Below are positions 10,836 through 51,975 of a stretch of 64,000 nt of DNA, one piece after another (positions within the stretch are counted from its first letter, which is position 1; every line of letters begins with the position of its first letter). The stretch comes from Pseudomonadota bacterium (GTDB taxonomy: Bacteria > Pseudomonadota > Gammaproteobacteria > UBA5335). The DNA lies in the NCBI GenBank assembly GCA_034189865.1, contig JAXHTV010000001.1, positions 124,001 to 188,000 of the forward strand, read 5' to 3'. Made by a program: the position numbers and the translations under genes. The notes under the pieces are model-generated. The model searched no databases. It was not told where the DNA came from and worked only from the letters and a program-made list of their open reading frames with translations.

Positions 10836-11906
10836 ATGACCAAGCCTTTGGATGTTCTTATCGTCGGCGCCGGATTGGCGGGCCTTCTGATCGCCTGGGA
10901 ACTTAACCGGCGTGGTTGGGGAGTCGGCATCCTCCGCGACCGGTCTCATCCGCCCACCTCCCGGATCGCTACCGGCCTGATAAACCCGGTCACCGGCCCT
11001 CGCCTGGCAGCCCGGCCGGATATCAAACCAACGCTGGCCAGCGCCGAGAGGTGCTACCGAGAACTCGGCCGAACCCTGGGACGGGCAATCTATGAACCGA
11101 TAGAGATCCGACGTATCTGCAAAGACTCCGCCGAGATCCAACGCCACCGACTCCGCTCCGCGAGCTCAGATTATCAAGACTTCCTCGGGCCATGGGAAGT
11201 ACCGGGTAGCGAGCAGAATCGGCTGCACGATCCTGAAGGTAGTTTCAAAATTCTGGGTGGCGCCCGTGTTCGGCTCGATTCCCTATTGGATGGTCTAACC
11301 GAATACTTCGAACAGCGCGGGGCAATAGTCTCCGGCATCGCAGAGCACTCGTACTCGTCCCTTCACCTTCAACGAGAAATCGTTCGTTGGCACGCTCTGA
11401 GTGCCAAGCGCATAATTTTCTGCGAAGGCTGGCGGGTATTGAACAACCCTTGGTTCGACTGGCTGCCCATTCAGCCCGCCAAAGGCGAACTCTTAACCGT
11501 CGTCACTGAGGTCTCAATGCCCAAGCTTACCCTCATCGGCGAGAAAACGCTGTTACCGCTGGGCAACAACCAATGGCGGATCAGCGCCACTTATGACCGC
11601 GAACATATCGACACCGAACCCACCGATGCCGGCGCGCGATCCCTGGTGACCGGTTTCAAGCGTCTGTTGCGTGAACCAGTCCAAGTACGAATCATCGCCC
11701 ACGAGGCAGGCATTCGCCCCGGCACACCGGATCGATACCCTCTGATCGGCTGTCATCCCGAATACCCGCAACTTACCGTCTTCAATGGCTTGGGGTCACG
11801 GGGTGCGCTGCTAACGCCCTTGTACGCTACCGCGTTAGCGGATCATTTGTCAGCAAATACCCCCTTACCGCCTCAGGCCGATGTGGTCCGCTACCATGCC
11901 CGCTGA
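10836..11906 (+). CDS. FAD-dependent amine oxidase (DAO family, MnmC2/MnmL-like)
   Basis: 356-residue flavoprotein of the DAO fold. The Rossmann motif VGAGLAGLLIAWEL is at residues 9-22, GLINPVTGPRLAARP near 48-62, and the C-terminal FAD-binding segment FNGLGSRGALLTP near 325-337 resembles the C-terminal oxidase domain of E. coli MnmC. That domain removes the carboxymethyl group from cmnm5(s2)U34 of tRNA to leave nm5(s2)U. The downstream gene encodes an MnmM-type methyltransferase and overlaps it by 11 bases, which suggests the two catalyse consecutive steps. Function by family alone could be any glycine/sarcosine-type oxidation. The upstream divergent gene begins 158 bases away. The ATG at 10836 lacks a strong ribosome site. 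Confidence 0.8.
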   Translation: MTKPLDVLIVGAGLAGLLIAWELNRRGWGVGILRDRSHPPTSRIATGLINPVTGPRLAARPDIKPTLASAERCYRELGRTLGRAIYEPIEIRRICKDSAEIQRHRLRSASSDYQDFLGPWEVPGSEQNRLHDPEGSFKILGGARVRLDSLLDGLTEYFEQRGAIVSGIAEHSYSSLHLQREIVRWHALSAKRIIFCEGWRVLNNPWFDWLPIQPAKGELLTVVTEVSMPKLTLIGEKTLLPLGNNQWRISATYDREHIDTEPTDAGARSLVTGFKRLLREPVQVRIIAHEAGIRPGTPDRYPLIGCHPEYPQLTVFNGLGSRGALLTPLYATALADHLSANTPLPPQADVVRYHAR

Positions 11907-12489
11907 AAGACAACGCCCCGACCGCGCGGTGTTGTCCGCCCACCAAGCCATCGGTGACGTATTGCGGACCGGCGATCTGGCTATTGACGCCACCGCCGGC
12001 AACGGCCACGACACGGTCTTTTTGGCCGCGCGCGTGGGACCGGCTGGTCACGTTTTCGCGTTCGACGTTCAAGCGGAAGCGCTCTCAAATACCCGAGAGC
12101 GCCTGGAATCAACAGGCGGCTTAGCATGGACATCGCTCATTCACGCCTCGCACGCGGAGATGGATCGTCACATTTCCAAGCCCTGTCACGGCCGCATCCG
12201 GGCGGTCATGTTCAACCTGGGATACCGCCCCGGAAGCGACAAGTCGGTCGTCACCCGCCCCGCAACCACCATCGCCGCGCTGGATCGAGCAACGAAACTG
12301 TTGATGCCTGGCGGGCGTTTGTCCATCGTGGCGTACCCGGGGCACGTCGGCGGGATGGAGGAAACCTTCGCGGTGACGGAATGGATTGAGCAGCTACCGT
12401 CTCAGGGTTACCTCTCCACCCCGGAACCAGCACGTTCGCAAAGGGCTCCGCGCCTGCTTATAGTGGCCGTGCGCGAAGCGGGCACTTGA
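11896..12489 (+). CDS. mnmM: MnmM/YtqB-type class I SAM-dependent tRNA methyltransferase
   Basis: 197-residue methyltransferase closely resembling B. subtilis YtqB, now called MnmM, which methylates nm5(s2)U34 to mnm5(s2)U. The SAM-binding motif IDATAGNGHDT (30-40), the acidic FAFDVQ strand (54-59) and the family signature FNLGYRPGSDKSVVT (106-120) all fit, including the NLGY catalytic-loop position. The partner upstream is an FAD oxidase that could make nm5(s2)U, with an 11-base overlap. An alternative start at 11881 would add five residues and overlap more. Enterobacteria instead use one fused MnmC protein. Pathway assignment is inferred from family and neighbourhood. Confidence 0.85.
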   Translation: MPAERQRPDRAVLSAHQAIGDVLRTGDLAIDATAGNGHDTVFLAARVGPAGHVFAFDVQAEALSNTRERLESTGGLAWTSLIHASHAEMDRHISKPCHGRIRAVMFNLGYRPGSDKSVVTRPATTIAALDRATKLLMPGGRLSIVAYPGHVGGMEETFAVTEWIEQLPSQGYLSTPEPARSQRAPRLLIVAVREAGT

Positions 12490-19810: not shown

Positions 19811-20719
19811 TCAGTAGCTGGCGATCACGGAAACCCGGCGGTTCGAAGCCATCCCGTAGCGGGTGTCGTTGTCCGCGACGGGTGAACGCTCACCTCTTGA
19901 GCGAACTCGGATCTGGCGCCGACTGAGTCCGCAAGAGATCAGATACTCCCGGACGGCTTTGGCCCGCGCCCGGGCAAGCCGATGGTTGTATCGCTTGCTG
20001 CCGCGGCTATCGGCATGTCCGACCGCCACCACCACCTCCGACAAATGAGGATTCTCACCCAGGCGTTCGACGAAGACCCGTAGCGTGTCCATCGCAACCT
20101 TATCCAATTCCCAGCTGTCGGTGACGAAATACACGCTGGTTTCCGGCGGCTCGGGCAAACCCGCGGCCAGAACACGTGCCGAGTCGATTCGTTCTGATTC
20201 TAAAATAGGATCGGCTTTCAACAAATTCTCGAGACAGATCAGATGCTCGCGGTAACTGGGCATAAAGCGCACATTGGACAGGCGAACCTCTACTTGACCT
20301 TCGTTGTACCAATCACGGAAGTAAAGACTCGGCATGTGTGCATTTTCGAGCTCACTGATCAGCTGCTGCGCTTGCCGATGACCGAACCGGAATGCCCGCA
20401 CATCCGGCGAGATCGTGGTCACACCGAGCTCCCGGATGCCCGGCGGTTGCCAATCCGGGCTGATGCTATAGAGTTGCGCCTCACCGGATGTCATCGGCGG
20501 GCGGCGAACGAACAGACTCAAGGCCAGGTCATGGGGGCCGGTCTGGGAAAAAAGCGCGGTCCCGAACTGCGGGATGTCATGTCGCAGATGACAGGTGCCC
20601 ATACCCGGCAAACTCACCCAACGGGCCACGTCCGGCGGCGCCATATACACGCCGGCCGCGCAGGTAGCCGACGCCCAGCACAACAGCCCGAAGAACGACA
20701 TGAGTTTTTGAATACGCAT
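19811..20719 (-). CDS. MotY-like OmpA-family protein
   Basis: 302-residue secreted protein with two parts. A signal peptide (SFFGLLCWASATCAAG) leads into an N-terminal domain resembling MotY, with CHLRHDIPQFGTALFSQ near 40-56, PMTSGEAQLYSI near 73-84 and YREHLICLENLL near 156-167. The C-terminal 110 residues form an OmpA peptidoglycan-binding domain with the TDSWELDK/ GHADSRG/ YNHRLARARAKAVREYL / GERSPVADN and NRRV elements. In Pseudomonas and Vibrio, MotY forms the T-ring of sodium- or proton-driven flagellar motors. No flagellar gene is in this window. The start at 20719 is used; longer frames overlap the neighbouring permease end. Confidence 0.85.
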   Translation of the reverse strand: MRIQKLMSFFGLLCWASATCAAGVYMAPPDVARWVSLPGMGTCHLRHDIPQFGTALFSQTGPHDLALSLFVRRPPMTSGEAQLYSISPDWQPPGIRELGVTTISPDVRAFRFGHRQAQQLISELENAHMPSLYFRDWYNEGQVEVRLSNVRFMPSYREHLICLENLLKADPILESERIDSARVLAAGLPEPPETSVYFVTDSWELDKVAMDTLRVFVERLGENPHLSEVVVAVGHADSRGSKRYNHRLARARAKAVREYLISCGLSRRQIRVRSRGERSPVADNDTRYGMASNRRVSVIASY

Positions 20720-51114: not shown

Positions 51115-51798
51115 TTAGCCATCAACTCCACCGTCACGAAGGGATTCAGAATCATCAACGCGGATCCATTCCACGACATGCCGCTCAGCTTCCAGGTGCG
51201 GCACGTCCAATCGACGAATGACGCCCTGGCGGTAACCGCAAAGATTCAAAGACAATTGTTCTCCTGGTTCCGCGCCTTTCATTAACAACAAACGCCCCCC
51301 TAACGCACAATGGGGCTTGGCCAGCGCCGCCAGCTTACCGGATGCCCCGACCGCCCGAGCGACGACTGTATCGTATCTCACTTGGGATTTGTGGCTCTCT
51401 GCCCGCCCTTGGACGGCCTGGACATTGCCCAACCCCAACGTCATGATGGCGTGCCGGACAAAGCGTATCTTTTTTCCATTGGCATCCAACAGCACAAATT
51501 GCCGCTCCGGCGCCATGATGGCGAACGGAATCCCAGGCAGACCCGCACCGGTCCCCAGATCCAGTATCCGCGCCCCGGACAAATACGGGAGCACCGCGAG
51601 GCTGTCCAACAGGTGGTGCGTGACCATTTGCGCGGGTTGTCGAATCGCGGTCAAATTGTACGCGGCATTCCATCGCGCCAACTCGTCGACAAAACGAATC
51701 ATCGTTTCTACCTGACGATCCGACGGACTCAGCCCCAATCGCGCACAACCACGCCGCAAGCTCATTTTGTAATTTTCGGTCGACGCCACGATCACCAT
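51115..51798 (-). CDS. rsmG: 16S rRNA (guanine527-N7)-methyltransferase
   Basis: 227 residues. The SAM-binding motif ILDLGTGAGLPGIPFAI near 74-90 and LLDANGKKIRFVRHAI near 99-114 match RsmG (GidB). ARWNAAYNLTAIRQPAQMVTHHLLDSLAV near 38-66 is the family's N-terminal part. The start is uncertain: 51798 is chosen for GGTGGG upstream; 51765 is nearer the E. coli start. In many relatives mnmG (gidA) precedes it. Here a divergent srkA is found instead, so mnmG must lie elsewhere. Confidence 0.93.
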   Translation of the reverse strand: MVIVASTENYKMSLRRGCARLGLSPSDRQVETMIRFVDELARWNAAYNLTAIRQPAQMVTHHLLDSLAVLPYLSGARILDLGTGAGLPGIPFAIMAPERQFVLLDANGKKIRFVRHAIMTLGLGNVQAVQGRAESHKSQVRYDTVVARAVGASGKLAALAKPHCALGGRLLLMKGAEPGEQLSLNLCGYRQGVIRRLDVPHLEAERHVVEWIRVDDSESLRDGGVDG

Positions 51799-51975
51799 TC
51801 GCCCACCACGACTCTGCTCGACACGCGACCCGCGATAATGGCTCGAAACGGCGCGCCCCACGGCCCATCATACATCGCTTGAACCGGCAACCTACGATCC
51901 ATGAGGCCCACGAAAAACCCGAGGAATTCTCGTCCAGTTGATATCCCATGGACGATTGCCTGACGATAGAACGCT

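Follow-up and report, generated by a model that had tools for sequence, protein, structure and literature searches.

Can two proteins encoded by overlapping genes stand in for single-chain MnmC and finish the wobble modification cmnm5(s2)U34? The question is raised by a pair of genes in the 64-kb stretch of gammaproteobacterial DNA that was analysed here as a whole (the window), where a sequence-only reading had proposed that a DAO-family flavoprotein and the MnmM methyltransferase next to it form a two-gene functional replacement for MnmC. The pair and the residues that matter for this proposal are laid out as follows.

10836..11906, + strand: DAO-family FAD-dependent oxidoreductase (PF01266), 356 aa, with its ATG at 10836
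11896..12489, + strand: mnmM (ytqB), tRNA nm5(s2)U34 methyltransferase (NF053511), 197 aa, with its ATG at 11896
11896..11906, + strand: overlap of 11 bases between the DAO and mnmM reading frames, which lie on the same strand
11715..11717, + strand: codon of DAO Arg-294, proposed carboxylate binder, invariant across three DAO groups
11793..11804, + strand: DAO G-S-R-G loop, residues 320–323, MnmC(o)-like and not ThiO-like
12214..12246, + strand: MnmM motif NLGYRPGSDKS (U33/U34 recognition), placed by alignment to Bacillus subtilis MnmM
12334..12345, + strand: MnmM Y147-P-G-H150 (U34 stacking and hydrogen bond), placed by alignment to B. subtilis MnmM

The overlap that had been read from the letters is exact, and the majority of homologous DAO/mnmM pairs in a comparison of 110 loci likewise overlap or abut; an overlap of this kind suggests that translation of the two genes may be coupled. 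The identity of the second protein is the firmest point of the proposal. It scores 189.4 bits against the curated NCBIfam equivalog NF053511 (cut-off 135) and matches the solved YtqB structures PDB 4pon and 8h0s, which bears out the MnmM/YtqB signature noted earlier (residues 107–120, NLGYRPGSDKSVVT). Judged by the equivalog and the solved structures, the window protein is with certainty a true MnmM, and it most likely methylates nm5(s2)U34 with SAM. The activity of the B. subtilis enzyme is abolished by mutating K11, D34, N101, Y104, K110, Y141 or H144 (PMC9976899). D34, N101, Y104, K110, Y141 and H144 are found in the window MnmM as D39, N107, Y110, K116, Y147 and H150, which again places the protein in the family. 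The equivalent of K11 is probably His16 (window 11941–11943); most homologues have His at the aligned position and others have Gln or Arg, with Lys at only one of the 110 MnmM loci.

The rest of the genome (2.9 Mb, 99.4% complete) sets the stage for such a pair. The genome-wide search suggested with the earlier reading located mnmE and mnmG adjoining on contig C6 (C6:92357–95623) and mnmA on contig C3, and because MnmE, MnmG and MnmA are all encoded, a route to cmnm5(s2)U34 is available. The same search returned no MnmC oxidase (TIGR03197) above the curated cut-off anywhere in the 99.4%-complete genome, no MnmC methyltransferase (PF05430) above its curated cut-off, the DAO and MnmM chains included, and no MnmL (TIGR01212) above cut-off. 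An intact fused mnmC, which had been named in advance as the observation that would speak against the proposal, was looked for genome-wide and was not found. DAO and MnmM thus appear, from gene content, to be the sole recognisable candidates in this genome for taking cmnm5(s2)U34 to mnm5(s2)U. The displacement of mnmG from rsmG, also noted earlier, is confirmed by the position of mnmE/mnmG on the other contig; in the window, rsmG forms part of an rsmG-parA-parB-atp cluster without mnmG (51115–51861, − strand). Rfam gives no matches within the 64-kb window, so that an ARAGORN call of tRNA-Arg(gcg) inside an OmpA-like ORF (window 20544–20619, − strand) is probably false.

We consider it highly probable, on the strength of comparative sequence analysis, that DAO and MnmM make up a two-protein equivalent of MnmC in which DAO would oxidise cmnm5(s2)U34 and MnmM would methylate the product. 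The absence of a recognisable MnmC, the presence of MnmE, MnmG and MnmA, the conservation of the pair and two fusions of its members all favour this role, as it was originally proposed. MnmE and MnmG would install cmnm5 on U34 of tRNAs reading NNA/NNG split-box codons, and MnmA would supply the 2-thio group. DAO would then handle cmnm5(s2)U34 as an N-substituted glycine, with Arg-294 gripping its carboxylate and FAD abstracting a hydride from the glycine carbon. Hydrolysis of the imine would release glyoxylate and leave nm5(s2)U34, the amine of which MnmM, made from the overlapping gene, would methylate with SAM to give mnm5(s2)U34. In this scheme we infer the substrate and electron acceptor of DAO, the coupled expression of the pair and the tRNA species that are modified.

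The case for the oxidase is built from several features of the protein. It is assigned to PF01266 (E 3.5e-29) and falls into no named family in the protein-family libraries searched, with 96.3 bits against TIGR02352 (ThiO; cut-off 250.8) and 88.7 bits against TIGR03197 (MnmC(o); cut-off 174.2), in each case below the score for membership. In an alignment, Arg-294 is invariant (45/45 pair DAOs, 10/10 MnmC(o) and 11/11 ThiO). We take this residue to be the binder of the substrate carboxylate, like the equivalent arginine of glycine oxidase, and by this analogy propose that it holds the carboxylate of an N-substituted glycine. Residues 322–323 are R/K-G in all pair DAOs, within a loop that reads S/A-R/K-G, and MnmC(o) is similar, with R-G at the same position in 10 of 10 MnmC sequences, whereas all 11 ThiO-like sequences have R-N-G. 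The C-terminal G-S-R-G of the window protein (320–323) therefore does resemble the MnmC oxidase, as had been claimed for its terminal motif, and a D-R/K-x-P stretch is also common to pair DAOs and MnmC(o). The best folds for the AF2 model of DAO (pLDDT 93) are glycine oxidase, iminodiacetate oxidase, CmiS2 and MnmC (TMq 0.79 for the last), and MnmC(o) has itself been described as a glycine-oxidase fold with an N-substituted glycine as its substrate (PMC3648344). The net charge of DAO is not clearly above that of ThiO, so that tRNA binding, if it occurs, is invisible in bulk charge.

Trees of both proteins had been recommended at the outset as a check. The pair DAOs form a third clade (support 99) beside MnmC(o) (100) and ThiO (95), so that the window DAO lies outside the MnmC(o) clade. 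In the MnmM tree, DAO-associated and MnmL-associated proteins are not cleanly separated, with 12 changes of the DAO label against 34 when labels are shuffled.

The association of the two families was measured in 370 evenly sampled gammaproteobacterial genomes, where the pair-DAO lineage was defined by a profile from 25 sequences at a threshold of at least 270 bits and a true MnmC methyltransferase by at least 70 bits. MnmM is above cut-off in 31 of the genomes, from 18 families, and the DAO lineage in 29; the two coincide in 26 genomes against an expected 2.4 (Fisher p=1e-31), and the genes are adjacent in 25 of these and fused in the other. An MnmC methyltransferase is present in 82 genomes, none of which has MnmM (expected 6.9; p=4e-4). 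In about two thirds of the sample, both MnmM and any recognisable MnmC methyltransferase are missing.

A scan of named genomes extends the pair from Methylomonas, Methylobacter, Nitrosomonas and Mariprofundaceae to Planctomycetaceae, Gemmata, Verrucomicrobiaceae and Akkermansiaceae, so that it spans three phyla, Pseudomonadota, Planctomycetota and Verrucomicrobiota. No PF05430 match is seen in 17 of 18 named pair-bearing genomes, and the remaining one has a single partial match of 24 bits in an unrelated-looking ORF. At the 110 MnmM loci, DAO lies directly upstream on the same strand in 62, is fused in 2 and is found within a few kilobases in 3; MnmL is present instead in 9 (Bacillota), and neither partner is adjacent in 34. 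Among 16 named genomes in which mnmM has no DAO next to it, eight encode a pair-lineage DAO elsewhere, and a search of three Bacillota genomes did not find a pair-type DAO. The pairwise distances of DAO and MnmM co-vary (Mantel r=0.74, 0 of 2000 permutations, which ignore shared species phylogeny).

The two proteins are joined in a single ORF, DAO first, in a gammaproteobacterium (L018:1435–3105, 556 aa) and in a planctomycete (L134:902–2581, 559 aa), and the model of the gammaproteobacterial fusion has two confident domains (pLDDT 93.5). This domain order is the reverse of that in MnmC, where an N-terminal methyltransferase is followed by the oxidase (PMC3648344). One further genome, G308, carries a pair-type DAO (L182:2345–3391) and no MnmM, and encodes on another contig a stand-alone MnmC-type methyltransferase of 253 aa (L181:410–1171). 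The same oxidase here seems to be paired with a methyltransferase from the other family, a partner swap as judged from gene content.

Comparison with the known systems shows what is shared and what is not. With Escherichia coli MnmC the pair has in common the two reactions, as proposed, an oxidase of glycine-oxidase fold, the invariant arginine and the S-R-G loop. MnmC, however, is one chain with its PF05430 methyltransferase first. The pair is instead encoded by two genes that overlap, or by a fusion with the order reversed; its methyltransferase, MnmM, is of an unrelated family, and its DAO comes from outside the MnmC(o) clade. By its sequence features the pair most likely works like MnmC, but curated cut-off, domain content and clade all place it outside MnmC. 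The MnmL/MnmM system of Bacillota has the same methyltransferase and likewise a partner gene directly upstream, but MnmL is a radical-SAM protein (TIGR01212) and the partner in the pair is a flavoprotein. In Cohnella, Paenibacillus and Neobacillus the gene immediately upstream of mnmM is of this radical-SAM type, whereas the upstream partner in the window is DAO. The sequence-only reading was mistaken in treating MnmL as another DAO subgroup, as TIGR01212 is defined in NCBIfam as 'tRNA modification radical SAM protein MnmL/YtqA' and is found upstream of mnmM in Bacillota; because MnmL is a radical-SAM protein and DAO a flavoprotein, the contrast with Bacillota is sharper than was first claimed. 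Its suggestion of a separate, third arrangement fares better, as the DAO partner and its own clade set the pair apart from both MnmC and MnmL/MnmM.

Cho et al. (2023) searched their Gram-positive bacteria for an operon that would combine the oxidase with the methyltransferase; they found no such operon there and did not identify which oxidase works with MnmM (PMC9976899). The literature that we searched, the coverage of which did not extend to a 2024 paper on alternative routes, contains no description of the DAO-MnmM pair. The abstract of Jaroch et al. (2024) reportedly mentions fusion proteins and alternate arrangements, and part of the DAO-MnmM arrangement may already be described there. 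For the phyla covered by our comparison, MnmM probably has as its oxidase partner one particular flavoprotein family, encoded next to mnmM or fused to it, and the question of the partner is directly testable in cultured bacteria, e.g. Methylomonas and Nitrosomonas. If the proposed role is right, the pair would be a third means of completing the wobble modification, in addition to MnmC and MnmL/MnmM. It would also reveal a modular swapping of partners: the same DAO would be combined either with MnmM or with a methyltransferase of MnmC type, and the same MnmM either with a DAO or with a radical-SAM protein. Annotators could then give a name to a DAO family whose scores currently lie below the curated cut-offs set for its closest relatives.

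Where the oxidase came from is a separate matter. It might be an MnmC(o) that split from a fused MnmC, with the methyltransferase replaced by MnmM, an origin compatible with the two-protein role and one that we regard as a serious possibility while leaning somewhat against it. The common S-R-G loop and D-R/K-x-P stretch argue for it, as does a weak branch joining pair DAO and MnmC(o) (support 76). Against this, the two are well-supported separate clades on long stems (99 and 100) with about 20% identity between them, the window DAO is below the TIGR03197 cut-off, and AU tests reject neither MnmC(o) nor ThiO as the sister of pair DAO. Such a simple fission of MnmC(o) receives no support from cut-off or clade and is not rejected by the AU tests. 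The other origin, which we offer tentatively and with more doubt than conviction, is a convergent second MnmC: a separate lineage of glycine-oxidase fold would have evolved into a cmnm5U34 oxidase in parallel to MnmC(o), formed a pair with the unrelated methyltransferase MnmM in Pseudomonadota, Planctomycetota and Verrucomicrobiota, and on at least two occasions fused with it in reverse order, an arrangement not known to have been described as such.

The most obvious rival to the two-protein role is that DAO is a metabolic oxidase, i.e. a glycine oxidase/ThiO or some other small-amine oxidase, that stands beside mnmM by chance. ThiO provides the best single NCBIfam score of the protein (96 bits), glycine oxidases are its top folds, and ThiO shares with it the DAO fold, the conserved arginine and a chemistry on a glycine-like substrate, as proposed for the pair DAO. 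The second-best fold match, the iminodiacetate oxidase IdaA (PDB 6pxs), by its name oxidises N-carboxymethyl glycine, which is chemically akin to cmnm5, but it is a small-molecule enzyme and has about 22% identity to DAO. The window protein, however, lies below the ThiO cut-off of 250.8 and lacks the R-N-G loop, and ThiO identity is rejected because the genome carries a bona fide ThiO of its own, on contig C40, at 287 bits and above cut-off. Together with the co-occurrence of DAO and MnmM, their fusions and the mutual exclusivity with MnmC, this makes a chance neighbour very improbable. It is about as improbable that MnmM acts alone on ammonium-derived nm5(s2)U from MnmEG while DAO has a different substrate, one connected with tRNA or SAM metabolism, since this reading, although MnmEG is able to use ammonium (PMC9976899; PMC3936742) and orphan-MnmM genomes exist, leaves unexplained the fusions, the pairing with an MnmC-type methyltransferase in G308 and the coupling at genome level.

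The two-protein role also has to accommodate genomes that encode only one of the partners. MnmM is apparently able to work without DAO, because four genomes (G351, G138, G236 and G314; loci L011, L038, L039 and L040) have MnmM with neither a pair-type DAO nor MnmL above cut-off, and there it perhaps uses ammonium-derived nm5 or another oxidase. The opposite case is seen in G031 and G367, where a DAO of the pair lineage is present and MnmM is absent. G031, with its DAO at L184:2600–3736, also has no MnmC methyltransferase, and modification in this organism may stop at nm5(s2)U.
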